A stretch of DNA of 64,000 nt, from contig NC_091105.1 in assembly GCF_024713975.1 (NCBI RefSeq), positions 17,244,439 to 17,308,438 on the forward strand, given 5' to 3'. A program made the position numbers and the translations under genes. The notes beneath the pieces were generated by a model. It made no database searches. It saw only the letters and a program-made list of their open reading frames with translations, and had not been told where the DNA came from. This stretch comes from Paralichthys olivaceus. Its lineage: Eukaryota; Chordata; Actinopteri; Pleuronectiformes; Paralichthyidae. Shown one piece after another: positions 3,378 through 64,000 of the stretch (position 1 is the stretch's first letter; every line of letters begins with the position of its first letter).

Positions 3378-6300
3378 TCTGGCCTGTAGACAGGCAGCCA
3401 ATAGACGAGCCTCCCACCAATGACCAGGTGACGAGCTGAGAAGTTTAACAGGTCTGTGAAGATGTCACTGAGATGGTACGCCTGTGAGACGGGGACGTGG
3501 GACTCTAAATATCTAGGCAGAAGATTAAAAATAAAATGTGAACAGGATTAGAACAGATCAAAGATTACCAAACATATGACCGTTAAAGACATTTGCTCAA
3601 GTTTTCCATTCATCTAATTGGACAAAGTTGCAGAGATTGTTTAAGGATCTAATGGAGTTAGAGTTGGAGTTTCTCTTGACTAGATGTCAGGCTTATGCTT
3701 TTCAGAATTAAAGCTAACTAATCTCAGATAAAAGACCCAGACACTATGAATGTATTTTATCAGTGTTGATGAAATAGCAGGTGAACATACATGCCGTCAG
3801 CAGGTTTGGTGACATCTTTGTGGGAGCCTGTTCGCCTTGTGGACTCACGGATACCATATGGAGCTGAAAACAAAAGAAACACATAGGAATTACAAAAGAG
3901 CACATAACTTCACCATGACTAACTGTCACATTAAATTCAATCAAGATGCACCAAATTGTGCACAGTCCTCAAAATGTTCCTGTTTTATTTCATTGGGACC
4001 TCTGAGTTATTTCTTGGGAAATTCAAATAAAATATTTATAAACACTCTATTCCAAAATGGTTAGGAAAGTGAAAAAACGAATTCCTGGATCTGCCACCTA
4101 AATTTAATCCAGAAGTCTGTGGCCCATACACTAGCCTGCCACCAAGTTTCAATAAAATCTGCTTGACTGTATAGACAGAGTTTACCCCAAGATGAGAGGA
4201 ACCTAAAGCCTGCAGAGGTGTAGCTGGGGCCCAGGCTGGTTGTAATACAGCAAAAAAAAAAATCCAGTGTGTGTTGAACACTGCAAATGAAATGTGTACA
4301 ACCAAATCAGATAGTGTCTACAGTGCTGAGCAATGAGGTGTTGGTTTGGCAAAGCTTCAGGATTATGGACATATTTTTTTCTCAGAATACATCTACCAGC
4401 TCAAAATGCAAACAACCCCAAAAAACATTAACGGCAAGAATTATACCCCAGTTATGATAAATGAATAAAAGGATTTCATACTCTGAAATTTTGTGTTTGT
4501 TAAGAACATAATCAGCACATACGATCAGTAATTATGGCATCGAACAGAGCAGCCTCCCTCCACACAGACTTGGATGCATCAGACACCATCACATCCACAT
4601 ACATCTTCTCTTTTCCATATTGCCGCAGGTTAGCTCTGATATTCTCATCGGGTCCTCGCCATTTCTGGTTTGTACGGCTCGACCGACCTGAACAACAAAC
4701 GCACATTTAGGATGATATAAATTTAAAAGACCACGTAAGCTCCGAGTAGACAAAACTTACCTCTGCCATGAATGGTGTTGTAATCAATGTCAATTCCACA
4801 GACATAGGCTCCAAAATGAGAACATGCTACCAACAGGCTCCCTGAAACAGAGACAAAGAACTGAATCATGATTAACCACACAGGTGGAAGTCTGTGTGTG
4901 AGGGGCAGTGGCAGAAATAACTCACCTGTGCCAACAAACGGGTCAAAAACCAGGTCATTCTCTTTGACCTTCGCGTGGTTGGCCATGATGAATGAGAGTC
5001 CGGCATCCATACTGGTGTTTCCAATGAAGTGTCTGTTCTTCACACTGTGGGAGCGAATCAGTTCACGTTGACCGTCCGCTATCTGGTACAGGATGAGGAG
5101 TGTTCAGCTGCAGATTAGCTTTTCTTAGTCTGATGCAAACAAAACGTCATGAGTCTCACCCATCTGCCAAAGTATATGTAGTATGGATGCTCGGGGATGT
5201 TGTTGGGGTCTGTGCCGTAATCCTCCAACAAACAGAAGATGTGCTGGGGGCTCTTCAGACTCACTGTGCCGTCAAATGGAAGATACTCCAAAGCCTGAGA
5301 TGAAAATACAGAACATGATGTTCTGAACATATACACAAGCTCACAAAGAAAAATACGCTGCACACATTTCTGAACACATCACACAAATCGTAAGACCCAC
5401 ATTAATCCTTTTGATTCTGTCTGGAAACTCCAGAGTCTTGTTGAAAGTGTAGACGTTGATTCTGTAGGTGGAGTCTTTGTGCATGAATGGTAACTGTAGA
5501 GGAATGTGGAGGAAGAGCACAGATAGAGATTCAAACATGTCATGATGTGTTTACATGGATTTGTCTGTAGGACACAATACAACAATAAACTGTAGCATCA
5601 CAAACCATGTTCTCTGATGGGTAGTTCAAGAGGGATGTTCTGAGTTCACTGTGTGTCTGCCCGTGGCCCCATAATTCAAAAGCGGACCTGGAAGGTTAAT
5701 GCAACTTAAACTACATCAACATTACAAACACTATAATGAAGGAAATACTGCCCAGGTGACAGGACCACAGATTAAAGGATGCATGACAACATGTGCAACG
5801 TGTTAAAGTCAATCCATCACCACAGGTCCAGCGACATCACTTACTTTGCACAAACAGATCTGGCCATGATGCCTCGGACATCATCCTCACACAAACCATC
5901 CAGACACCAGAAAGGAGCCTAGAGAGAAGAAGCCAGAAGTTCAGCAGCTGTTGAGGCCACTGACATGTCCTCCTTCTGCAGCAGAATATTTTGTTAGACA
6001 GTCGACACAGCAGTGAAAACAAACTGGACATGCAAACCTTTTCTTTGAAGTTTTCACCAGGATGGAAGGGTTTTCCTCTGAGGGCCAGCAGAGCCTTAAT
6101 CTCCTGAAAGAGTTTGGAAAAAGGCACAAATACTGACCTATGCATTTAACTCTATTGGAAAATATTACACTTACAGGCATATTGAAGAGAAACAACTGGG
6201 ATATATGGCGCTCATAAAGTATAGAGACATGATTTTTAACAAAAATTTAAGTTTGTTGCAGCAGAGACTGAATTATCCTGAGTTTTAATAATACTGGAGC

Positions 6301-8876: not shown

Positions 8877-8962
8877 GTAGATATTATTCAGTGAGTTCAT
8901 TGTTTTTCTGTTTGTAAAATGACCAAATACAGTTATATAATCTTCTCCTAACACAGCCAGTG

Positions 8963-9502
8963 ATGGGAACAAACAGTGAGAGCACCCCCACCATGGACAC
9001 TGAAGATGACGCCCCAGCTCCTGCCCAGTTTGGCGATGACACTGCTGTGTGCATTGTCTCTGTGAAAGGCTTAAAGGAGAACTGGCAGAAGTGGTCTGAC
9101 GAGCACCAGGAGTACCAGAAGCACAACCCCTTCAGTCACGATGCCAAGCCCAGCACGGTAGTCCCTCAGAGGGGGCAGGATGACTACGGGAGGCCCCTGC
9201 AGGGCTCCATGACGGAGCAGCGGGGGAAGGATGCTCACACACGTATCAGCAGAGAAATTGAGGAGCTGTGTGAGGTTATAAGGAACATTGGCAAGCCAAG
9301 TGACTTTGACGGGGAAGGAACCAGCTGCGACGGTAAATCGGTCTGTGTCGAATTTGGGAAACTATTTGAGCATTATGTGACTATCTCGAACAAACTGGTG
9401 GGGATTCTTCTGCGAGCGAGGAAGCAGAGGCTGGTTATCTTTGAGGGGGAGATGCTGTGGCAAGGGAAGGATGACCATGTCGTTATCACTCTGTTACAGT
9501 GA
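8963..9502 (+). CDS. Short ABRA-like (STARS family) protein with C-terminal costars domain
   Basis: A 179-residue product encoded in one exon, starting at ATG 8963 just after a splice acceptor (TCCTAACACAG, ends 8956). The 5' leader is therefore probably in a separate upstream exon. The acidic, Pro/Ala-rich N-terminus has no clear family match. Residues about 33-90 resemble the mid-region of ABRA (ENWQKWSDEHQEYQKHNPFS, then YGRPLQGS). Residues about 95-179 are a costars domain ending FEGEMLWQGKDDHVVITLLQ. ABRA binds actin and promotes Rho/SRF signalling in muscle; the costars domain is an actin-binding module. Mammalian ABRA is about twice this length and ABRACL is only the domain, so this is an intermediate form. 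Relative to ABRA there are about nine extra residues (around 111-122) before GKSVCVEFGKLF. A possible polyA signal is AATAAA at 9964. The family call is secure; the exact orthologue is not. Confidence 0.88.
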   Translation: MGTNSESTPTMDTEDDAPAPAQFGDDTAVCIVSVKGLKENWQKWSDEHQEYQKHNPFSHDAKPSTVVPQRGQDDYGRPLQGSMTEQRGKDAHTRISREIEELCEVIRNIGKPSDFDGEGTSCDGKSVCVEFGKLFEHYVTISNKLVGILLRARKQRLVIFEGEMLWQGKDDHVVITLLQ

Positions 9503-16785: not shown

Positions 16786-19883
<3,098 letters not shown>

Positions 19884-30829: not shown

Positions 30830-31854
30830 GAGTGTTGCCAAAGTCATGGAGGATTTTGATCATATCATAATAATGATAATGACAACACAGACTTTGTATA
30901 AAATGTCAAAAGCTGAGAATCAAACCTCACAGCAGACGATTAAATTAAGTCCATTTGAAGTAAAAAGACATTAACTTGTATAATTCAGGCTCAAAGCTGA
31001 TGTCATGCAAGTTATGTCAAGAGATCAGCAACTAGTCAGTAACAGTAGTGAAAAAAACACCATCCAAAAGTACTGAATGAAGCTGCCTTCTACTGTAATA
31101 GAATAGTGAATGTGGAGATGTGTGGATTGGAGCTTCAGAAGCTCAATAACGCCCTCTTTTGGGGAGATGAGGTTTAACATGGTACAGGGAGTGAAGCCCC
31201 ATCAACTTCTATCATTTTTAAACCCTTTTCAATGACGCCCCTTCCTGGGGAGGTGTGGTGTGCCAAGGAACAGTGAGTGACGCAGAACACCAATCACTTT
31301 TGTTACGGCCTCAACCTCAAAAGTTTAATACCACCCAGCGACTGCAATGCACAAGGAGGATGCGACTTTACTCGAAAGGTTTTTCAACAGAAACAAAAAT
31401 AAGAAATTAATGTAAAATTAAACTGGGATTGTAGAGGCCTGGCCAAAAAGGAAACAAGCCATAAGAACTGTACCGTGATGACGAGAGAGACAGAGAGAGA
31501 ATCCTCCTTCATTTAATCATGCTTACCTGAGAGGAGAAACATTGACAGGAAAGGGGGAGAGGGGTGGAGAAAAAAAACATAAGGGGGGGTGCACCTCCTT
31601 CAGTACTGGACAGCGCTGATTGGTTCAGGTTTACCAGGTTCAGCACTGGACAGCCCCACAGAGGGAATGACAGAACTGTCAGCTGGTGACATTTTACCAA
31701 AGTCAACCACCCTATGCAATAGCAAACAGCAGGTTATCAGAAGGAAGAGAAATCACACATAGCAAAATTGTTTTGGCCCAAATTGTATGTCCCTCATCCT
31801 GCCCACATACCACCCAGAGTCATAGCACTTGGGTGGTCCGCTCCTGTTTGCCAG

Positions 31855-32090
31855 ATCTGAGCCACAAATAAACCATAGCAGTAGTGGCCTGACCTTGTTT
31901 TGTGCTATTTGGGCAATTATCACCGTTTACCACATGGGCAACTTTAGATTCACATCCAGAATGCTCCTTGCCTATAGCACTGCATTTGAGCCACATTTGC
32001 TATTTTACAAGTGGGCCACTTTAGGCTCACATCGATTTTGTTCAGGCCACAAGAGGTCCAGATGTGCTGCATCACTGCCTTAAGTAGCAC
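31855..32090. repeat. Degenerate repeated motif GGGCmACTTTAG
   Basis: GGGCAACTTTAGATTCACATC (near 31938) and GGGCCACTTTAGGCTCACATC (near 32014) are about 76 bp apart and very similar. GAGCCACA motifs also recur before each. It looks like a short, diverged tandem array of about 76 bp period. Confidence 0.45.
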
Positions 32091-32315
32091 ACATCCCTAT
32101 GGCATCTGGATCTCCTCAGTTGCAATAAAGCTATCAGAAAAATAAGCATAATTATGATCACTCAAACACAGCACAAGAAGAAAACACCTTCACCAGAGCT
32201 TTACTGTCAGCCAATTAATTGCCCAACATGGAATTAATGCTATCTATAGGACAACACAGTTGAATCCCCACAGCAACTGGACCTGTAACCATGTGTGACT
32301 CCATGTGGACAGTAT

Positions 32316-32375
32316 GCAAAGGTGCATGCAAAGGTGCATGCAAAGGTGCATGCAAAGGTGCATGCAAAGGTGCAT
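32316..32375 (+). repeat. 12-bp tandem repeat, five perfect copies
   Basis: The unit GCAAAGGTGCAT is repeated five times without a mismatch (60 bp). Across unit borders it forms ATGCAAAG, one base from the POU octamer ATGCAAAT. Confidence 0.95.
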
Positions 32376-33556
32376 CAGTGCAAAGTATTTGCACTGAAAA
32401 GCTAGAACACCAGCATCCACAGCAGACTCCTAAGGGAAAGACAACACACCAGTCAAAATGAATGACTGAGGCGCTGCTGTAGTCCTCAAATTACTGGCTC
32501 GAACACAAAGCCATGCATCAGATGTGGAGCATGAGCTTGAATATGCTGAAATTTTAATCTTAAAACAATTTGGAGTAAATTCAAATAAAAAAAATGTATC
32601 TGTCCCAAAGTATAACAGTCCCAGTCAATCTCAAGGGACAATGACACACTGTATGAATGTGTGTATAGGTGAATGTGCAAAACTAGCCTAGAAAAGCACT
32701 ATATAAATATAGACCATTTACCGCCTCCTTACTTACCATTTGCAGTTTCTAATTAATTTGATTATTGTTAATCAGAAGTTTTGGATCTATTTAGAACAAA
32801 CAGAAAAGAGAATTTGGGAGTGGAACTCATGGAAATTATGAGAGAAAGATACAAGAACGCATGCTGGAGTATAAAATGTTACACATATTTCACGTGGGCT
32901 GACTCAAAACCAGAAAAATACATTAAACGTTTGGATACTAAACTATATTTAATCAAACACATTTTTAGATAGACACTGCTGGATTCAGTGCAGTGTGCAG
33001 GTGCATGAGGATAAACCATGTGATACTGTACTGTGGTACAGGAATCCTGCAGATCAGGAGAGGATGACTTGGAGGGAGGACACAGAAAGGACACACCGGT
33101 AGTGGGTGTATCCTGTGTGGGCTGCTGTCACATAAACAGAGAAAGTGAAGTGCTTTCAATCTATTGTTGGGAAACACTGCGTGGAGCAAACCTGACATAA
33201 CTCCAGGAGAAGAGGATTCCTCAGTCGACTGCCATCTCAGAACAACATGGCAAAGACTAAACTGGGTAAATACATGTCCTCCTTCTAAAGCTGCATTTTT
33301 ATTCATCTCGGTGATAATGACTGAAGGTTTGTGTGATTGTTACCACTGCAGAATAAAACAGCTTAAAACAGCTTAGGTGCTTATTTTGTGATCATTCATC
33401 CATTGCCTTTATTTTTTGTAAGTTAAGAATACAAATAATTGTTCCTAACTTTGAACAGGTTACTATATTTAAACATACTTTTTGTTCCTTTTTCTCTGCC
33501 CAGTAGACATAGTGTCATGTAATTGTTGGAGTCAGGAGTGTGTAGAGATAGGAATC

Positions 33557-35462
33557 ATGGCAGCGTGGTGGTAAAACCAGATCAGCCAGTCTGGTGAGTC
33601 TCTGACTGCAGGGTTGTCATGCTTTACTTGCACAAGGTGATGCAGTTGCATATCACACAATAGGGAGTCAGATAAGCCATTAACTGTTACATCTGAATGA
33701 AGAACTCAACCATTCTTTATTATTTAACACTAAAGCTCAAAGCTTCAGTCACTGAGAGCATTTCAATCTGCATAATAAATAATGTCCATAATAAATCTTA
33801 ATTTACTTGATACATCCATGTACAAGTGCAGTGTGCAGTGAAAGGCTGCATGGTGCAAGACAACGCAAAGTTGAAGTCAAAATATATAATATCTCAATCA
33901 ATCAATCGTGCATAACAAGTTGTGGCAAACCTAAAAAACTATAGACCTTTTTTTGTCATATCTCAGCTGCTAGGAGCCCTTTAACTGAGGCAGCTGTGGG
34001 GTTTGCACTAGGAGCTGTGGGAGGCTGCATAATGGGAGCCACAGAGGAGCCAGTGGACCAGACCCTGTTAATGATGACTGCAGCGGAAACATTGAAACCA
34101 CTGATGGAGGAAGTCAGGACAGTAGGTGCTCTGGGGCTGGGGACCCTTATAGGAGCCACAGCACTAACCACAGCCATGACTTCTGTAGTAGCTGGTGTGA
34201 TTCTAGCTGCAATGGTAGCGTCAGTGTCCGTGGCCACCAGGAGCTGCGGCGCCTCCCAAAGACACTCTCGTGGCGTTTGGGCATCGGCAGGACTGGCTGG
34301 GGCCTTCGGGAGCACTCTCAGTGGAGCCACACTTGGGGTTGCTGTTGAATGGATTGTGAAGAATTATGGCATGGTGGGCCTTCTGTGGGCGCTGAGCATA
34401 TTCACCATACTCAAACCACCCGTGCACTTTTTACTAAAGCTCCTCTGGAAGCAGGGAGAGGCCTGTCGCACTCTGGGATCTGAAGCTTTGGCCAGAGAAA
34501 GGGAACAGATTGAGGTTACAGAGTTTCAGCAGAAACAAAGGGTGGCTGTGCAGATAGAGCAGAGGATCCTGATGCTGGAGCAGGGAGGCGGCACCGGTGG
34601 GATAGACCACAAGACAACATGGGCCACTGAACGCAGGAAGAGAGAAGAGATAGAGAGGAAGAAGATGGAGAGTGAAGAAGCAGAATTGGACCAAAGAACC
34701 GTCCAAGACTGGATCAACACCATGGTGGTCAAACATGTGGACTTCTTGGCTTTCTCAGGGATACCAATGACAGTGGTTGCCATAGTAACATCAAGTTTTG
34801 GGGTGTTAGGCTATGGAGGCCACCAGTCTGTGCTCATAGTGCTTCTGGTTTTGGTGTCAGTCATAGCCTATTTGCTTCTAAAGTCTTCTGACTTTAAGTT
34901 CTGGATGTTGGTGGGATGCATGGGAATGCTGGCAACGTTTGTCATCGCCATGCTCACCCTACACGCCGGGCAGTTGGTCGTAACATCGGCCATGAAGATG
35001 GAAGCAGCAGGGCAGCCTCAGTCCAGAGAAAACATTAGAACTCGTATGAACCACCAATCCTCTTTGGAAGCACTGAATGCAGCTTTCTTTGTGGCAAAAA
35101 TGTGTCAGCTGGGTTTAGGGGCTGCAGTGGGTGGGCCTCTAGTGAGGCATGCAGCTGGAGATGTGAAAGTCATAGCAGGGGCTGCTTTAGTGGCGGGTGG
35201 TTTACTGGCCGGGGTGGAGGGTTTGGCTCCAGCTCTGGGAGAAGGGGGAAAAGCTGGGGCACTGCTTGGCGTGGTGGGGGCAGCAGGGGTGTCGGTGGGT
35301 GGAGCATCAGCTGTGGCTGGAAGGTGGTCCTCATGGCCAGGAACCTTGGGAACAATAGCAGGGTTAGTGTTTGGGGCATTAGTAATGGGTAAATGGCACA
35401 TAGTCAACATTGGACTGCAGTTGCCTGTGGCTTATGTGTTTGCTATGACTAATCCATTTTAA
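33557..35462 (+). CDS. Unrecognised multi-pass membrane protein with central charged helix
   Basis: I do not recognise this family. Exon 1 is 33557-33570 (ATG GCA GCG TGG TG, donor GTG|GTAAAA). Exon 2 is 33974-35462, after acceptor CTGCTAG, ending in TAA. The joined product begins MAAWWSPLTEAAVGFALGAV and has 500 residues. The large exon is open for 1489 nt with high Gly/Ala/Val content. Hydrophobic segments lie at about residues 12-28, 57-92, 107-130, 134-163, 260-283, 288-308, 312-334, 375-395, 401-421, 432-455 and 461-477. Small-residue patterns such as GFALGAVGG and GLGAAVGG suggest glycine-zipper packing. Residues about 165-245 are rich in Glu, Arg, Lys and Gln and probably helical, possibly coiled-coil. 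No signal peptide, enzyme motif or zinc site was seen. A possible polyA signal is ATTAAA at 35780. The large exon is very likely coding; the tiny first exon is a prediction. Confidence 0.75.
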
Positions 35463-37010
35463 CATGTACTGTGAAAAATGTTGTCTGTGAGTTTATGTCA
35501 TTTACATGAAATATCTGTTTTAATACCTGCCTTAGGATATTCTACCTTCTCTTCTTGTCACAATGAATGTGCCAGACTAATCAGTTCTCTCTCTCTCTCT
35601 TACATACTCTGTGCGTGTGTGTGAAAACTAGTAAAATGCATAATTGAGCCACACTGCTGTACTGAGCGACATCACCACGATCAGAAAAGGGACAGACTTT
35701 CATGTTTGACTCCAGTCATTTGACCTGGTCTCTATGTTACTATACTTTGTCCAATGTTTGTACTAAAATGTTTTTATACATTAAATACTGCATTTGAATG
35801 ATGTGTATTTTTGAGAATCTAAGTGTCTTTGTCATGTAACTGCAAGGGTTATTAAAAATCAAAACGCATGCCTCCAACAGTTAAGTTTCAGTTAACATTC
35901 ATGTACATCCACACTTTTATAATAGCTGTAGTGTGGTGGAAGAAATATAATGTAAAAAATGTGTTTATAAGGTCATGTCTGAACAGCTGTAGAGAAATAT
36001 CCAACTGGACATTGGGATTATTGTCAGATATACTTGTTGAGACAACCGTACACTTGGGTGTAACAGATGAATTTTCATGGAATTAAGGAAATATTGTTCA
36101 ACATGATACAAATTTGACATTGATCAGCAGCATAAATTGAGATATTTATATTCACACTGATTCTTTCTCAGACAACAATACCAAGATTGAATGATGCAGT
36201 GCCATATGACATGGTATTTCTTGGTATCAGCTGGTATTTAAAAAAAACTCGTCATTTATGGGCAGTGATATGCAGGACAAGACTGTTTTTTTCCACCTGA
36301 GAGGCAGCTCAGCTTAAGAGGGCAAAGGGGCCTTTACTCAGAGTGCAGATATCCTTGCATTGATAGGCTGTGACAGAATGCTGTGAAACCTGTTTTTATC
36401 GGTGGAGCAAATCAAAAAGGACATTCCACCTGCAAAACAATAGAAGTGAACACTTGATAAACATCAGTTACCTCAACATTCAGGAAGCTTGGAGTCTCTA
36501 AAAATGATCGTAATCAAAAGTCTTTCCAGGTTTGGGGTTGGTTGCATTTACTAGAGCACACACATTAAAGTGTATTAATAAATTATTTCTTACACTCAAA
36601 TATAAATAAAATGAACAAACTACCTCCCCTGACAATGGACACAACCAAATTATCATTTTTATTGTTCCCTTTATCTTATGCTGGTGCTGTTTTACGTACA
36701 CAAGTACAGATCATTCATAATGAGCTAAAACTTTTATTCACATCACAAGAAAGCACTTATGCTGCTTTCATTACTAGATATGATAGTTATTTAATGTGAG
36801 ATAGCCCTATTTCAGCTTTTCTTTTTTTCTTATTTGGATTTTTGTTTCCTGATGTGCTTTCGTATTCGTTTTAATCATTAGGTTATTGCTCAACTTGAGG
36901 CTTTATTGTTTGATCAAGAAAATATGACTGTGTCTTGTTAGTTTGTAGTTTTATATGATTTAATAAAGAAAAAAATGTCATGTGTCAGGGTTTGGACCTC
37001 CCCCACCGCA
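35463..37010. other. Intergenic region, no gene recognised
   Basis: The left part probably contains the 3' UTR of the membrane protein gene, with candidate signal ATTAAA at 35780. The remainder is AT-rich and shows no coding exon. Another AATAAA is at 36961, just before the RRP15 promoter. Confidence 0.5.
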
Positions 37011-37128
37011 GTGACGTACAGCGTGGGCCAATGACGTATTTACGCATGGACCGGAAACGGCCCGTTCCTGTGGCGGAACCCCCGCATGTTGGTAGTTTTC
37101 GCACACGGACCATAGTTATTGTAACTCC
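37011..37128 (+). promoter_or_regulatory. RRP15 proximal promoter with paired CRE-like sites, CCAAT and ETS motif
   Basis: TGACGTA occurs twice, at 37012-37018 and 37032-37038. A CCAAT box (37028-37032) overlaps the second copy by one base. CCGGAA (ETS-type) is at 37051. The stretch is more GC- and CpG-rich than its surroundings and has no TATA box, fitting a housekeeping promoter just before the ATG at 37129. Confidence 0.55.
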
Positions 37129-39788
37129 ATGATGGCAGCGGTGATGGAAAAACATGTGGAGACGCCAGGTGAGTTCTGCTTTTGTGTGAAAATCACGACG
37201 TGTCGAGGAGCGAGCTGCTCCCTGTGTTCTGCTGCTCTTTATCTCATCTGCTGCTGTGGCTGTGTGTTGGTACAATTCATGTCTGTGGCTGCGGTCGGAG
37301 TGTCCAATCTACTTTCCTACCCACTATTCCTCGATACCAAAGGAAAACATCGCGAGGTCAAGGAAAAGTGTGAAGGAGAAGCCTAAAGGAGTTAGGATAG
37401 ATAATCCCACACACTGAGTGTTTTTCCTCTTGAACAAACTTTATTTATAATCGAGGCTGTGCACAGACTGCACGTCCTCTGTGCTGTGAGCTGACAGTTC
37501 TAGTGAAGATGATGTTAAATCATTCATCAGAAACAACTCCATAGATTTGATTGCAAATGAAAACAAAACAGGAAAACTGTATGTATGTGGAGTAAATTCT
37601 TCAGTGAGGGAGATGGAGATGATCCATGAGCACACAATTTCAATTATCCAGTGTTGGCCATTGTCTCTTCATAGTCTCTTTTACTTTAAATAGTACACTT
37701 ATAATGCTGTTATTTTTTATAGTGATCTTTCCATATATTCACATAAGTATTACTCTTTTTGTGTCACACAGAGGACGATGCTGAGCCTCAGTGTGAGGAC
37801 AGCGATGACCAGAGTGGTTCTGAAGGAGAGAATAAGGATGAAAGGTTAGATGATGGAGGGAGCAATGGAGAGGAAGCAGACGATGATGATGATGACAACG
37901 ACAAGGAGGAAGAGGAGGGTAACACCAATGCTGGATGGGCGGAAGCCATGGCAAAGATCCTGGGGAAGAAAACTGCAGAGAACAAAAGCATCATCTTGGT
38001 CAAGAACAAAGAGTTGGACAAGATGAAGGAGAGAGAGAGGCAGGAGCAGCAAGAGAAAAAGACACAGGTAATGAGCCAAGTGAAAGTGTGTGTTACACTG
38101 TAAAATATATACCTGTCTAAAGCCCCTTTTGGAAATATAATAATTTTGTCTGGGATATCGGCGACTTCCCTTAAGCTTTAATAATACCTGCAGCTTTGGA
38201 TGGGAATACTAAAATGTGTTGTGGCAGTACAACAAGCTCCCTCACATTCTAACAATGTAAACTGTCCTGTCACTGCATTAACCACAGCAGCAGCACTTTA
38301 CACTGTGATTTTCTTTTATTGGTGATCCCACTACTCTGGCCACCGAACACCTCACTCACAAGCTCCTCAATTCCAGTGTCAGACAAGTTGGGCCTTTTCT
38401 TGCTTGATGCCACAATTCACCATAAAAAACATTGATCAGCAAGGTTATCTGGTTTTCACATTCATGAAGTGCTTTGCTTTCACCATGAATGGTTGAGTGT
38501 GGCTGTGTAGAGGGTCGGATATGTGCCAGATCTACGTGCACATGTTTCAAAGTCCACTGATTTATAGGAAACGTTGACTTCAGCTGTGCAGTTTTTATAT
38601 CAGATTTTTTGGTGAATGCCATTTTCGTTTTTTTTTGTGCGCATGTACGTTTTGAGTATGGATCTTTAGTTGTTCGATAAATGAGACCCCCTCTTCCCAG
38701 TGAGAAACATTTAAAAGCACTCTGAGAAACAAGTGTCAGGTCTGATGTGACAAAGAGTGAACTAACATCAGTGTGATCAACCAAAAATGATTTTCACAAC
38801 CTAACCATATATTTATTATACTGTATATGTGTACATACTGTATATGTTTACATACTGTATTTGTGCTTGTGTCCAACAGGTTGACAAGAGGCGATCGTGG
38901 GAGATGATGAGCAGGGAGAAACCAGACGTAGTGGTGGACAGAGAGACTGAGAGAGCTCTACAGAGGATAGCTACCAGGTATCTAGTCGCTTCTTATGAGG
39001 CTGTGTTTGACATCGTCAGAACTATCATTCCGTCCAGATGTGACCGTGTGTTTTTCTGCTCAGAGGGGTGGTGCAGCTATTCAATGCTGTGAAGAAACAC
39101 CAGAAGAATGTGGATGACAAGGTGAAGGAAGTGGGTGGCTCAGAGAGGAAGAAAGCCAAGATTCTTGGGACTGTCTCTAAGAAGGATTTCATCGATGTGC
39201 TGAGGAGGACTGAGGAAGGAAGCAGAGGCACCGGCACACCGACCGACACTGTGAGTTCAGTCATATCTAATTCTCTGTTTGTTGCCTCCAGAACTGATAC
39301 GGCACTACACTCTAAATGACAATTACTCATTTGTAGGTCTTCTTTGGAAAGCTGCATGGCTCATTCTCTCTCCAGTGTGGGCCTGTGCTACTGTTTCATT
39401 CTGTCAGTCAGATCATGATCCGGGTGTGGGGGGGTGGCATAACATAATCGCTTGTTTAGCGTACTTGAGATGAAAGTTTGAAATAATCATGATATTTATT
39501 GGATGTCATATCACCCAGCCCTAACACATTTCTCACCAAGTAATAAAATGTAATTTCACTGAGTGCTCACATGGTGTCACTGCTGCCTTTTAAAAGCACT
39601 CACTGAACTCGTGCGTTGTCTCTGTGCATGTGCAGGCTGCTGCGACAGAGGAGAAGCCTGCCTGGAGCATCCTCAGAGATGACTTCATGATGGGAGCCAC
39701 CATGAAGGACTGGGACAAAGACAGTGACAAAGAAGAGGAGACTGAGCCACACTCAGCAGCGGGGTTAGAGGATAGTGATTCAGACTGA
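37129..39788 (+). CDS. rrp15: RRP15, ribosomal RNA-processing protein 15
   Basis: A nucleolar protein needed for pre-60S ribosome assembly and 27S/32S pre-rRNA processing. Exons: 37129-37168, 37772-38067, 38880-38977, 39064-39250, 39636-39788. The joined frame gives 257 residues. Residues about 14-65 are strongly acidic ([16 protein letters not shown] and a run of Asp/Glu). The conserved Rrp15 core follows: [66 protein letters not shown], then [22 protein letters not shown] near the C-terminus. Length is close to human RRP15 (282). A second ATG directly follows the first (37132), so the true first Met is uncertain by one codon. AATAAA at 40138-40143 is a good polyA signal. The gene precedes TGFB2 on the same strand, as in human 1q41. 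Confidence 0.95.
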
Positions 39789-41640: not shown

Positions 41641-42602
41641 AACTGGAGAGGTGTTTCTGCAGAATCGTTCAAAAAGTTTCGCAAACCTCCCAGTGATCGG
41701 CTTTAGGACCCTGCGTCACGACGCACCTCAGGCCAATGGGCCATTAGCAGTTGCAGCGCTGTCCCAATGGGCATAGCAAGCACTCCTATTTACCAAACCG
41801 CCTCGTAACGTGGAGCTGCAGCGGTCCCCTGCTTCCACAGCGATGACCACAGTCTCGGTTTGAAGTGTGTGGAGGGGAAACACGTTGAACCTTTAGCCGC
41901 ATCTCCTGCCAGCGTCCGCCGCTGTCCGCTTGGCACGCGTAAAAGACGAGTCGAGCCCAGCTAGATGGGGCTGGGGAAGACGCGTAAGAAACTGCACTCG
42001 CTTCGAACACAAACTCCGAGCTTTTTTGTCAGCGAGCTACCTCCGAAGAAAGGTTCGTTGTCAGAGTGGAGCCGCTACTTTGAGCGGATTTCTCATTTCG
42101 CCGTAACGCGACATTATACAGTTGGCACCTTGCGTCATAACAACTAATCGCTAAAGTTTAGCACAGAAACCTGAGATGAAGAGTGGTGAGAGCGCTGATG
42201 CGGTGGAGGTGTACTCGCAGCTATGCGCCCCGCTGACGGTAACACTCAGCTGTTTTAACTCCCCCGTTTTCATCCATAGAGTTTAGATCTGCCTCCGTCA
42301 ACATCTTGCTGCGCCTCAAGGCTGCGCACACCCACTGTGAGGAATAGATCACCTGGATCTCTTTTCCTCTGGACAAAATTGAATGGATTTTCAGGGACAC
42401 TTAACTGAAACTGGGGTATTGGAACCAGAAAAGTTTTCAACTCCCTGTTTTTGGCCACTCGGCCAGTCTGCGTAAATGCTCTCCACTTTGATTTCTGCGC
42501 AAGAAATGCATCTGCATGGCGATATTTAAATCGCCGCGGTAAAATCCCTCCAGGATCTGCTTTTATTTGTTTGAAATTTGAAGACACATACACGTGGAGA
42601 AG
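41641..42602 (+). promoter_or_regulatory. TGFB2 promoter and 5' leader region
   Basis: The region is GC- and CpG-richer than the preceding kilobases. It contains TGCGTCA (near 41712), a CCAAT box (about 41733) and a second CCAAT (about 41764). No canonical TATA box was fixed. Mammalian TGFB2 has a leader of over 1 kb, so much of 41800-42602 may be transcribed. Two upstream ATG frames (41965-42147 and 42176-42286) fall in it. Confidence 0.5.
42176..42286 (+). other. Candidate upstream ORF in TGFB2 leader (36 codons)
   Basis: ATG at 42176 (context GAGATGA) opens a 36-residue frame starting MKSGESADAVEVYSQLC and stopping with TAG at 42284-42286. A second ATG at 42198 in another frame opens a 12-codon frame. 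If transcription starts upstream, ribosomes would meet these before the TGFB2 ATG at 42603. Whether the region is in the mRNA is not shown by sequence alone. Confidence 0.3.
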
Positions 42603-43175
42603 ATGAACCTGTGTATCGTCAGTCTTCTGCTCACTTTGGATTTAGCCACTGTGGCGCTCAGTTTGTCCACATGCAGCACGCTGGACATGGATCAGTTCAA
42701 GAAGAAGCGCATCGAGGCAATTCGAGGGCAGATCCTGAGCAAGCTGAAGCTCACCAGCCCCCCGGTGGACTTCCCCGAGCCCGAGGAGGTGTCCCGGGAC
42801 ATTGTGGCCATATACAACAGCACCAGGGACCTGCTGCAGGAGAAAGCCAACGATCGGGCGGCGACGTGCGAGCGGCAGCGCAGCGAGGAGGAGTATTACG
42901 CCAAGGAGGTGCACAAGATCGACATGTATCCCTTCTACCCGTCAGAGAGTAAGTGTGAGAAAAAAAGATTGTGTGCGCAAAACGTGTGAATGTGTGCAAA
43001 CCTGCGGGTCTCATGTGCAGCCCACTGCTGGATTATTACCTGAGTGAAGTTCCACATAGCGTGTGTGCGTGGTCACGTGTGCGTGTGTTTGTTTTGGAAA
43101 ACCCGACCCATGCTGTTCTGGAGGGAATGTGGAAACAGTTTCTGCAGAGCCAGCAGACAGTCCCTCTGCTGTACC

Positions 43176-59300: not shown

Positions 59301-62234
59301 TGCTGTTTGCAGCAGGTTCCTGTTGACCTGCCTATTCATCCCACAGTAGATTTTGTCACTGAAATGTTGGTTGACTATTAAATCATTCATTCCTTCTCTT
59401 GTGTGATGGGATCAGACATAAATTTGACATAAATTCCTTCCCTACTTAACTCTTTACTATCTACCTCAGTTTCAGAGTACACCTGTACTGATCGTGGAGC
59501 TAGCACCTTGGCGGCGAATATGGAAGTCAGACAGGTCGGCTGCTAAACTGTTAGCAGTACTGCAAATTTGTTGAGACAATATACGAAGTGGCAGATACAG
59601 TCACAGAGTTCCCTACTTGAAGTAAAAAGCAAGAATTACACAAAAAGTTTTATATCGCGAAGCAACAACGCCAGCGTCCTCTCACATCTGGGTGAGTATC
59701 GGTCCTGCTCAGGCTTGGCTGTTGTCCAGGAAAAAGCAGTAAGCTGTTGAAGAGAACCTCTAACTGGAATGGTAATATTGTTTTAAATAAGACTTTCATG
59801 GGCTTTGGCACTGGCCATTCACTGATGTTAGGAGTATAAGCACTTTAACTTGCGAGAGCTGCAGCGCAGGAATGGATCTGTCAGCTACTCATTGCTGATA
59901 CTGCGAATCAATCTGCCGAACCTCTACGATTTTGACAAGGATCCTCATCAAGGACTAGGTTGACATGGTGAGCAACAGGGTAAATTGAAACACAGACCCA
60001 ATCTCATGTGGGAAAATATGCAAAGTGGCTTGCAGTGGAAGCAGGAAAATTAGGCAGCTAAAGCAGCTTAAATAACATAGGGAGGGAAGCAGCTGAGCCA
60101 TCAGTTGGTGTGGGCTGACATGGAGATCTGCTGCTATCAGTTTAAATGCTGGATTGTGGCTGAGCTTGACTTCTTAACCTGCCTGAACTAACGCTTAATG
60201 TTTGTGCTGTTTGTTTAGAGTTTTGGCAAAATTAGCCAAAGTTTCAGAAACACCATAAGACTGTCACATTAGGTGAACTAAATACTTTAAATTGTGTTTA
60301 TGTGTGATTGTGGTCCAGTGTGAGCCCTGTGATTGATGGGTGACATGTCGCCCAATGTGTGTTTGAATAGATAAGTTGCAGTAAATCACTGTTTTTTTTA
60401 ATAAATAAAAGTCAATATACATGTTTGAAGTGTGACTGTTGAGAAGATGATAGAAACAGAGGCACCACGGCAGCAGAGGTTTTTCACAGGTGGCTGTGAG
60501 AATCCTGACTGTTGGCTGAACAAACAGCCAGTGGCGGAATCAGACAGTACATTCCTCTGGAGACTTCATTTTTCTACTGCCTGCTCTCTGTTGTGTGTTT
60601 CCATCCTCTACTCACTTACACAGATACTCCAAACCCACCCAGGATGTAAGTTTTTCTCATCAGGCGAATGTTCATTGGCTTGGTCAGAGCACACAGAAAC
60701 AAGTAGATGACATAGAGAACAGACAGGTGATGAAAAGAGAAGCTGTCACCATATATCAGCTCAGGATGACAAGTCTACTACTCTGTAATAATCTGTAATT
60801 CTGTTGTTACGGTTACTATCTGTTCATCCATGAAACACTTATTGGTTAAAGAAGCATGACAGTGTTTATCAATTACTTTATGCATAAAGTCATAAAATGG
60901 ATTGACCATAACCAACTTGCTGGTCCCAGTCTCATGCCAACCTAGTGAATGCTGCAGATTCATGGGGGTGAATGGCAGAGTAGATAAGTTTTTCACTGCT
61001 CATTTGTCCGATCTACTGGAACCACAGAGAAAGATGCACTCTCACAGCCATGTTCCTGTATAGTACATACTGGTTCCAGTCCTGTAGTCCACTCTCAATA
61101 ATGAGGACTAATCTAAGTTGGTAAACTTGCTTTGTCGATGTGGATGATGATTTAATAGTTTTCTAACATGTTGTATGTCATTGTTTGAGTGTGTGTCTGT
61201 GTTTTGTCTGTCGCCATAGATTTATGGAGTTGTTAATCAGAAACATTATTACCAAAGCAAAAAAATGTCCACGTTCGATGTTCTATTATCAAATTGCATA
61301 TTCAATTATATTGAAAAATAGTATAGTGAAGAATTTCTCTCTTTTGTTTGTGTGTGGGTGTGTGTGTGTCAGCTGTTCCCAGTCCATGTCTATTGTTGTG
61401 GTTGTCTACTTTGTGTGAATAAACTCACTGTGTATTGTTGATCCCAGGCTTCTGCCTTACATTACAGCCATCTATTTCAGACCCCCTGGCCTCCTTACTC
61501 ACTGTGCTTAGGGAGACTGGCAAACAAAAGCTCCTCCACTGCACACATGGTTTCCAGTGCTGCGTGTGTGTTCCGCAGAATCTGTCAGATATGGCAACAC
61601 ATATGGCTGTCAGTGCTGCTGGTGTCGCCTCGGTTCTGTGTAAGCATCTGTCAAACATTTCCACACCCATGTTTCAAAGTACTCCATGAGGGGGATTGTG
61701 CTGCTGCTACTGTGCAAGGCTGCTGCGGTACTAAGAGAGTATGTTATTTGGTTATGGGGGTCAGGGTTCTTCTGATTTGGTTTTCATGACTTGGTGACTA
61801 GGTTTTCAGATTGTCCGTCCTTCTGTCACATTCTTGTGAACACAATTACTCAAGAATGCTTTGAAGAAATCTTTTCAAATCAACATTTAGCTTTAAAAGT
61901 ATCATTGAACCCATGTTTTCATTTCTTTGAGCACACCAATATACTGTTTTGAAAATATGCAGCTGGAAAGGGCTTTAAAATGATGTGAGCCGATTTGACC
62001 TAACACCTCCACCTCTGTGTTTGTCCTACACACCTACACTCAGTCGCCCATTCTCTCTCCTTTTTTGTAGATGTCATCTCTGCAACTCATTTCAACCCTT
62101 ACTTCAGACGGCTGACATTTGATGTTTCCTCTATGGAGAAGAATGCATCCAACCTGGTGAAGGCTGAGCTCAGGATCTTCCGTCTTCAAAACCCTGTGGC
62201 CAGAGTGTCTGAGCAACGCATCGAGCTCTACCAG
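42603..62234 (+). CDS. tgfb2: TGFB2, transforming growth factor beta-2 precursor (exons 1-2; continues beyond window)
   Basis: A secreted growth factor made as a latent precursor; it signals through TGF-beta receptors to SMAD2/3. Exon 1 is 42603-42948: a hydrophobic signal peptide ([20 protein letters not shown]) is followed by [19 protein letters not shown], part of the latency-peptide straitjacket, and the N-glycosylation site NST in [13 protein letters not shown]. Donor is AGA|GTAAGT. Exon 2 is 62071-62234, after acceptor [30 protein letters not shown], with a second NXS site, then [14 protein letters not shown] and EQRIELYQ, donor CAG|GTACAC. Phases fit (115 codons plus one base). The rest of the latency peptide, the furin site and the mature ligand lie to the right of the window. 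The start ATG follows alternative in-frame near-cognate codons but is the family-consistent one. Identity is secure. Confidence 0.96.
43178..43224. repeat. (CA)n microsatellite
   Basis: About 23 uninterrupted CA units, in TGFB2 intron 1 near the exon 1 donor. Confidence 0.96.
43472..43735. mobile_element. MITE-like element with terminal inverted repeats
   Basis: The left end reads TTAAAGAGATAGTTTTCAC. The reverse complement of the right end reads TTAAAGGGATAGTTCACTG. The phrases CTCATTATCTACTCACCACT and GGATTTGACTGCAATGCTGT inside are of a kind I recall from repeats in many fish genomes. No coding frame is present, so it is non-autonomous. Confidence 0.7.
47712..47744. repeat. (CA)n microsatellite
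   Basis: About 16 CA units followed by CAGACA variants. Confidence 0.95.
50935..51095 (-). repeat. Teleost interspersed repeat, copy 3 (reverse)
   Basis: GTGGTGCAGTAATTAGCACTG, then GAAGGTTAATTGTTTGAATTC and AGTTTGCATGTTCTC. This is the reverse orientation of the end part of the copies at 10074 and 22083. Confidence 0.6.
53286..53334. repeat. (TG)n microsatellite
   Basis: About 24 uninterrupted TG units followed by TGTGAGTGTAAATGTG variants. Confidence 0.96.
53930..54015 (-). repeat. Teleost interspersed repeat, fragment (reverse)
   Basis: CCTCTCGCCCAATGTTATTT, GGGATTGGCACCAGCTCCCC and AAAAGGATAAGTGGTACATA. This is the reverse complement of the start part of the copies at 10074 and 22083. 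Confidence 0.6.
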
Positions 62235-64000
62235 GTACACACACACGTTCGATCCAATGTCCTGAATCATACAGATAAAAAAGGAAAAAAAAGGTTTACA
62301 GTCTGTATTTAGGGGCCATCGAGTGATGCAATGTATTTAGCTCTTGCATCCTCTGCTTCACTGTTATAAGAATGGAATAAATGCTTGTAGTTACAGCATT
62401 TATGTTAGTACTAGGCTGTAACTAGTACAGACTTCCTGTACTCCCTTTTTAGACAATGAATTATTTCAGTAATCCAAGGCAATACAGGAGGATAATTGAA
62501 TTTAAATGAACAGTAAATAGGAGCGATGCTATCTAAAGTTAACTGTAATTTAAAGAAAGGGTCTCAAAACAAGAGACATCATTTAAATGTAACTGAACAC
62601 ACTCGAAGGTCTTTTTGAAAATAACACCTAGCCCACAACCAAGACCACATGGTCTGGGGAAGCCGATAAAATCATAATCAAACAAGCTGTGCCCATCTGC
62701 TTTGGACCAGGTGTCAGTAAAAACGTAAAGATTTTCAGATGAAAGAAAATCACGTGGGGAGTGCCACATCAACAGTGGTGGGTCCATATCCAGAAATCAG
62801 AGGGAGGCATGAGTTATGGGTGGGGGGTGGCGTGGGTAGGACCTAGATGTGAACATGCCCTGGAATGCTGACTGCCGGGAGGCGTTTCTTGCTTCATTCA
62901 GGAACCTTTGGTGCCACATTGTAACAACTTGTCAATGCCTTTTTGTCTGCATACTAAGCTAGTGTTAGATATCCCTGATAGGCAAGGAGGAAAGAGAGGG
63001 CTGGAAAGAATCAGTGGTATTGTCTTTGTTGAACTGGGCAGGGGATTTGGTTTGAGGCATCTGGGGATCTACCTTCTGATTCTTCCCTCATCCCAGACAA
63101 TGTCTCTCTAGACCTCAGTGTTGTCGAGGAGGTCTGTAGTCTTGCACCCTTGTTTAGCAAATGGCACATATCCATATAGCTGTTAGTTTCAAGCAGGTCT
63201 GAGTCACTAAGGGGCTCATTAAATCAAAGTGATGCTTTGCAAGTGTCAACAATCCATCCTCTTGTCTTGAAGTTGACAGATACTTTTTTCCAGCTAAATG
63301 TTTCTTTGCACTGTTGAGCCCTGACAAGCTGTTCAACTGTGAGCTGGGAACAGGCAGGGGTTGCCAGTTAGGATACAGGTATTGGGCTGGACTGTATGTG
63401 GTGAAACCAAGACTCAGGGAGAGAAGCAGTTCCCAGTGATCAACAGGCAGACCACCAAACAAGGATCCAAAAAGAAGAGCCAAAAACAAAGTAGGGCAGG
63501 CTGAGCAGAGCAGGATGAGCATGGCGATATTTCATGCATGGCTGGATGTTGGATGACAAAAATTCACATCAATCAGACAGACTGACAAAGTTCCAAAAAA
63601 CCTGAAAATACAAATATTGAGAAGAGACAGTAGCATGTCTAACCACTGTGGTTGTTTGATGACCTGAAGTCTGGTTGCTTGATCTAATGCTAAAATACTG
63701 CCTGTTGGTGTGGCATTGATTAAAGCTGCAGTTATGCTTGACTGATTGATTATTATGTATGCAAACTGTGGTCCATTCCCCTTTCTCACTTGAGGCATGG
63801 TAACTTGCCACAGAGAATAATACAACCACACCACCGGAAAAAGGCAAAGAGCAAGAAACACAAACAGAATAGTTTTGGCACTGCCTTGTTTCTTCCAGGA
63901 ACACCCCAGACTTGTGCATGCTTCTGTGGTCACAGAGAAATCTTTCCATAGTTTCCTGAAGAATGTCTCATCTTTACCAACAGTCTCTGCTCCCTCCAGG
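62235..64000 (+). other. TGFB2 intron 2 (start)
   Basis: The third TGFB2 coding exon was not found before the window ends. The interval holds a non-LTR retrotransposon remnant on the minus strand (about 62539-63520) and minus-strand open frames at 63532-63949 of unknown nature. Confidence 0.6.
62539..63520 (-). mobile_element. Non-LTR retrotransposon remnant, endonuclease region
   Basis: The minus-strand frame at 62539-62787 contains LYVFTDTWSKADGHSLFDYD and GFPRPCGLGCGLGVIFKKTF. This matches the pattern of the apurinic endonuclease of L2/Rex1-type LINEs (an xxxTETWL-like block followed by a P-R-xxG-x-GGGLxxxxK/R block). The catalytic Glu of TETW is replaced by Asp, and the frame is interrupted by stops upstream, so the copy is dead. 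The minus-strand frame at 63154-63522 may be its upstream part. No reverse-transcriptase part is seen in the window, so the copy is truncated. Confidence 0.5.

Follow-up and report, generated by a model that had tools for sequence, protein, structure and literature searches.

A long open frame in Paralichthys olivaceus with the predicted layout of a glycine- and alanine-rich multi-span membrane protein

Tmem135, of 52 kDa, is described as a protein in which two Tim17 domains are linked and eight membrane spans are predicted, and the Tim17 family is described as including a coiled-coil-bearing group, mostly fungal, and as having a PRAT motif of the form [GA]x2[FY]x10Rx3Dx6[GAS]Gx3G (PMC5072337). 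Among the layouts known to us, those of the Tim17 superfamily, and above all of Tmem135, appear nearest to that of the putative product of a long open frame that we analyzed in a 64-kb stretch of P. olivaceus DNA (hereafter, the window). Here we describe this frame, its surroundings and its predicted product, and compare the latter with described membrane-protein families.

The open frame and its gene neighbourhood

The stop-to-stop frame at 33945-35462 on the forward strand comprises 505 codons and is the longest in the window; the runner-up, with 194 codons, contains a Costars domain identified by Pfam. The 1489 nt from 33974 to 35462 are open throughout, as a first-pass annotation of this DNA had claimed, and the exon join proposed in that annotation does translate to 500 amino acids followed by a stop. 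Our own delimitation of the exon is slightly different:

33967..35462, forward strand: main coding exon, with the preferred acceptor at 33967 and the TAA ending at 35462; 497 amino acids counted from 33969

The region of the frame has a G+C content of 52.7%, compared with 40.7% for the window, and four opposite-strand frames of 94-135 amino acids overlap it, both of which would be compatible with a chance opening in a G-rich stretch that holds no gene. However, the longest frame in order-4 Markov simulations of the window (n = 40) had 207 amino acids, and 64-kb sequences simulated from the order-1 or order-2 composition of the exon itself (two sets, n = 40 each) gave longest frames of 359 and 353 amino acids, so that none of these 80 sequences went beyond 359. 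In simulations of exon length, 0 of 500 attained 505 codons, the longest frame having 255. A 505-codon frame is thus very unlikely to have arisen by chance, and we regard the absence of a gene as highly improbable. A crude codon score, built on a human codon table, places the segment 33987-35321 at the top of the window (73.4), with a TGFB2 exon second (69.8), and the three codon positions of the frame are unlike in composition (43% G at position 1, 34% T at position 2). We therefore favor a genuine, uncharacterized gene that consists essentially of one large coding exon and encodes a polytopic helical membrane protein. Taken with the packing and organelle mechanism proposed below, this reading is in our judgment fairly probable; that the frame is protein-coding, taken alone, we hold with greater confidence.

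The codon usage of the frame differs from that of its neighbours. Between 33969 and 35459, ATA provides 14 of the 22 isoleucine codons, a share that exceeds even that of ATA in the trinucleotides of the whole window (0.35); in four coding stretches drawn from three neighbouring genes it provides 2 of 20 (Fisher p = 0.0004). Third-position GC is 0.53 in the frame versus 0.59-0.82 in the same four stretches. Such ATA-heavy usage is compatible with a gene of weak expression, young age or relaxed constraint and, together with the lower third-position GC, counts against a conserved, well-expressed one.

No second copy of the exon product was found within the 64-kb window (next best tblastn E 2.3), and pattern searches for relatives in collections of viral and prokaryote contigs gave 24 and 19 pattern matches, respectively, with none confirmed in either. 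Rfam returned no match at gathering scores across the whole window. A repeat scan of 31500-37500 listed 11 direct families and one inverted pair, and saw no long terminal or inverted flanks around the gene; a two-copy 24-nt pair that flanks it (33012 and 35450; 75% identical) was read as chance.

For the identification of neighbouring genes, ten stretches of the window were analyzed with Pfam at a ceiling of E 0.1; six of them matched and four gave no match. The matches were as follows:

4726-5103, reverse strand: sub-threshold UPF0020 methyltransferase match (Pfam E 0.00078)
8918-9499, forward strand: Costars domain (Pfam E 1.7e-29)
37747-38100, forward strand: Rrp15p, under the curated Pfam cut-off
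39044-39316, forward strand: Rrp15p, over the curated Pfam cut-off
42582-42986 and 62004-62309, forward strand: TGF-beta propeptide, both over the curated Pfam cut-off

We take the UPF0020 stretch to be part of TRMT11. NCOA7-type TLDc-like motifs at 16.8-17.5 kb on the reverse strand were spotted by eye only, as was a further NCOA7-like exon at about 18.9 kb, and both presumably belong to NCOA7; the NCOA7-like stretch 18715-18948 had no Pfam match at the ceiling of E 0.1. The candidate gene is flanked by these NCOA7-type exons (reverse strand) and by RRP15 (forward strand), with TGFB2 further on, which bears out the location between NCOA7 and RRP15 that had been claimed for it, on Pfam evidence in the case of RRP15 and on exon motifs recognized by eye in that of NCOA7. 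In human, the NCOA7 and RRP15/TGFB2 blocks are, we assume, on different chromosomes. Elsewhere in the window, a Costars coding exon (8954-9475, forward strand), which we take to be ABRA-type, sits between the TRMT11-like and the NCOA7-type exons.

The presence of an intact frame among ordinary vertebrate genes suggests that the gene may already be annotated in fish databases under an uncharacterized locus name and be conserved across teleosts, with nothing remarkable about it but its missing name, a reading that is compatible with the one we favor. Uncharacterized loci of this kind are common, but among the papers listed in literature searches on the neighbouring gene names no title concerned such a gene, and we put the chance of this reading at slightly better than even.

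The 5' and 3' ends of the candidate gene

Candidate features around the main exon were identified with weighted splice-site scores and by matches to consensus motifs:

33247..33265, forward strand: candidate alternative first coding exon that can be spliced in frame to 33967; its ATG has the context AACAACATGG
33317-33326, forward strand: further first-exon candidate, which fits 33967 in frame
33504..33593, forward strand: 90-nt exon candidate (acceptor 7.46, donor 6.47)
33557..33570, forward strand: first exon of the first-pass annotation (MAAWW), with a weak donor (0.24), inside the 90-nt candidate
35780..35785, forward strand: ATTAAA polyadenylation-like signal, a consensus match only

The 14-nt exon 33557-33570, joined to 33974, had been considered a believable tiny first exon, which our analysis did not support. 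Its donor at 33570 (0.24) and the acceptor at 33974 (0.77) both stand at the 91st percentile, among the GTs and the AGs of the window, respectively, whereas the acceptor located seven bases before 33974, at 33967, scores 6.77 (99.5th percentile). In addition, at least one frame-compatible mini-exon of such quality occurred in 86.6% of simulated 1000-base upstream regions (n = 500) for the acceptor at 33974, and in 85.4% for that at 33967. Since mini-exons of like quality are this frequent in simulated regions, no first-exon candidate can be taken as established.

When spliced to 33967, the candidate exon 33247-33265 would give the N terminus MAKTKLAARSPLTEA; its ATG context is good and its donor weak (0.99). 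Among the splice sites of this region, those of 33504-33593 form the best pair; the segment keeps the frame between 33265 and 33967 but contains one in-frame TAA. These 90 nt may represent an untranslated 5' exon, a cassette exon that bears a stop, a skipped segment or no exon. A start at the ATG at 34032, within the main exon, is also possible, and would remove most of the first hydrophobic segment of the product.

An in-frame stop in the candidate with the best nearby splice sites, like the preference for ATA above its trinucleotide share in the window, could indicate that the gene is decaying or young in its lineage, that its frame is open owing to recent history and that its 5' end is damaged or unfinished. 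An intact frame of 505 codons with ordered hydropathy argues against such a history, and the 90-nt stretch may simply be skipped or untranslated; we therefore consider decay or recent origin unlikely.

Downstream of the frame, A[AT]TAAA matches five times between 35463 and 36800, the first match (35780) being 318 nt past the stop. Upstream, a perfect tandem array of the 12-bp unit ATGCAAAGGTGC (32314-32375, 5.2 copies) lies about 870 bp before the candidate start at 33247. An IRF-like 12-mer, GAAAGTGAAGTG, of interest as a candidate for the upstream interferon-response site that the IFI6/IFI27 (ISG12) family would have, is present at 33141-33152 on the forward strand and at 2485-2496 on the reverse strand. 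A degenerate IRF-like pattern, chosen after the 33141 site had been seen, matches the window twice where 1.35 matches are expected, a number that is not above chance, with at least two found in 45 of 100 shuffles.

Predicted layout of the product and family searches

A simplified insertion-energy scan identified eleven hydrophobic segments in the 497-residue exon product, in agreement with the "about eleven" reported previously. Three of these are strong, that is, favourable (exon residues 66-90, 284-304 and 311-334), and eight are marginal and mostly rich in Gly and Ala. The product can be divided into the following parts:

33981..34415, forward strand: N-terminal block (exon residues 5-149) with five hydrophobic segments, one of them strong (66-90)
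34416..34742, forward strand: charged middle part (exon residues 150-258), predicted to be helical, with 18 K/R, 20 D/E and a GGGTGG break
34743..34970, forward strand: three hydrophobic segments (exon residues 259-334), two of them strong (284-304 and 311-334)
35163..35396, forward strand: C-terminal block (exon residues 399-476), rich in Gly/Ala, with three marginal segments

GxxxGxxxG motifs begin at exon residues 11 and 15 in the N-terminal block and at 426 and 461 in the C-terminal block. The exon product contains no N-glycosylation sequon and its C terminus is TNPF.

The central, highly charged helix that had been claimed is present as a charged stretch of about 100 residues that is helical in the model, but it is interrupted by GGGTGG and its coiled-coil heptads are weak: in the best 28-residue register, half of the a/d positions are L, I, V or M, and a putative coiled coil is not established. 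An imperfect 15-bp tandem repeat (34639-34680, 2.9 copies) lies inside this stretch, and the Glu/Lys/Arg-rich helix may owe part of its length to expansion of this repeat.

Single-sequence AlphaFold models of the whole exon product and of its first 168 residues are helical, with mean pLDDT values of 50.1 and 52.9, respectively. The highest-scoring part of the whole-product model comprises residues 151-250, where the means of ten-residue blocks range from pLDDT 58 to 75. Both models are too low in confidence for a fold comparison to be meaningful.

The glycine-zipper-like patterns noted earlier hold at the level of the whole protein: GxxxG occurs 14 times, compared with 7.3 in whole-protein shuffles (a count attained by 16 of 2000), and a three-small pattern occurs 30 times, compared with 14.8 (attained by 0 of 2000). 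Within the hydrophobic segments, however, the patterning is modest, as 371 (GxxxG) and 234 (three-small) of 5000 shuffles confined to these segments attain the observed counts; nor is any helical lag prominent, since Gly/Ala/Ser spacing gives no z above 1.1 over lags 1-12 (lag 4, 1.08; lag 2, -2.03). The two ends of the protein resemble each other weakly (blastp E 0.19, with the score attained by 17 of 300 shuffles), which would suggest an internal duplication only weakly.

Consistent with the earlier statement that no known family could be recognized, there was no convincing match in Pfam, NCBIfam, PHROGs or PDB sequences. Pfam returned 0 families for the whole exon product; among 12 fragments, searched at a ceiling of E 10 with HMMER filters that remove most hits weaker than about E 0.1, and without a positive control, seven had no match and five had sub-threshold matches only. 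The latter were to Gly-zipper_OmpA (best E 0.016), Acetyltransf_9 (0.027), YrhC (0.031), STT3 (0.046), DUF4781 (0.65), Anthrone_oxy (4.9) and prePAAR_I (6.2). NCBIfam gave 0 matches for the whole product, the only query used there, and PHROGs a best E of 0.3 for the whole product and two fragments. Searches of PDB sequences matched cytochrome c2 with the whole product (E 0.029, 16.4 bits) and gave E 1.1, no match, E 0.4 and E 3.9 with four fragments, all of which we took as chance.

Proposed mechanism and comparison with described families

If the frame is a genuine membrane-protein gene, as we favor, we infer that its product is expressed, inserted into a membrane and able to oligomerize. The Gly/Ala-rich segments on both sides would pack via small-xxx-small contacts to form a membrane-embedded bundle or oligomer, and the charged middle helix would stay outside the membrane as a contact or regulatory arm. 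The location is probably an organelle or other internal membrane, because the product has no N-glycosylation sequon and most of its segments are marginally hydrophobic. It is also conceivable, though we rate it as unlikely, that the gene founds a vertebrate family of membrane proteins that is as yet undescribed and that mammals have perhaps lost, in which the long charged helix would bridge two glycine-rich helical bundles of an oligomeric channel or membrane scaffold and the stop-bearing 90-nt cassette exon would act as an off-switch.

If conserved, the gene would encode a family-less vertebrate membrane protein of some 500 residues. As it is located where two gene blocks meet that lie on separate human chromosomes, one could then date when it was lost or retained. 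If confined to P. olivaceus, it would exemplify a multi-span gene that is young or in decay. On present evidence it is an orphan with respect to the libraries searched, a common situation.

The Gly-zipper_OmpA family (PF13436) matched exon residues 6-25 (E 0.016, 0.042 and 0.029; 14.1-15.5 bits against a curated cut-off of 27). The likeness consists of one GxxxGxxxG segment, covers only 20 residues and is not recovered with the whole protein, and the match is best read as shared composition. The IFI6/IFI27 (ISG12) and apolipoprotein L families, both represented in Pfam, have Gly/Ala-rich membrane segments like those of the exon product, but are unlike it in length and in its charged middle; neither domain was among the Pfam matches of the whole protein and its 12 fragments, in a search whose filters drop most matches above about E 0.1.

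It may also be that the product belongs, as a diverged member, to a eukaryotic membrane family that already has a name. The most plausible is the Tim17 superfamily, in which case the product would have a TMEM135-like layout of two Gly-rich bundles joined by a linker and would act in a mitochondrial or peroxisomal membrane. Members of this superfamily are characterized by a four-span fold and by a location in mitochondria, plastids or peroxisomes; for the exon product, the low-confidence models show helices. An Arg/Asp/Gly arrangement near exon residue 394 is, by eye, reminiscent of what we take to be the Tim23 motif, and serves as a lead rather than a test. Nonetheless, no Tim17-type Pfam profile matched the whole protein or its 12 fragments (ceiling E 10, with HMMER filters and without a positive control), the PRAT motif is found at best at 4 of its 7 positions, at five places, no TIM protein is among the few weak PDB sequence matches, and the resemblance between the two ends of the protein is weak. 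We thus consider membership rather improbable. A charged middle of about 100 residues is likewise not a feature known from the TMEM135 description used here (PMC5072337). What the exon product does have in common with TMEM135 (PMP52) is a size of about 50 kDa and multi-span helical blocks at both ends that carry the glycine zippers (GxxxGxxxG), and coiled-coil-bearing members do exist in the Tim17 superfamily (PMC5072337).
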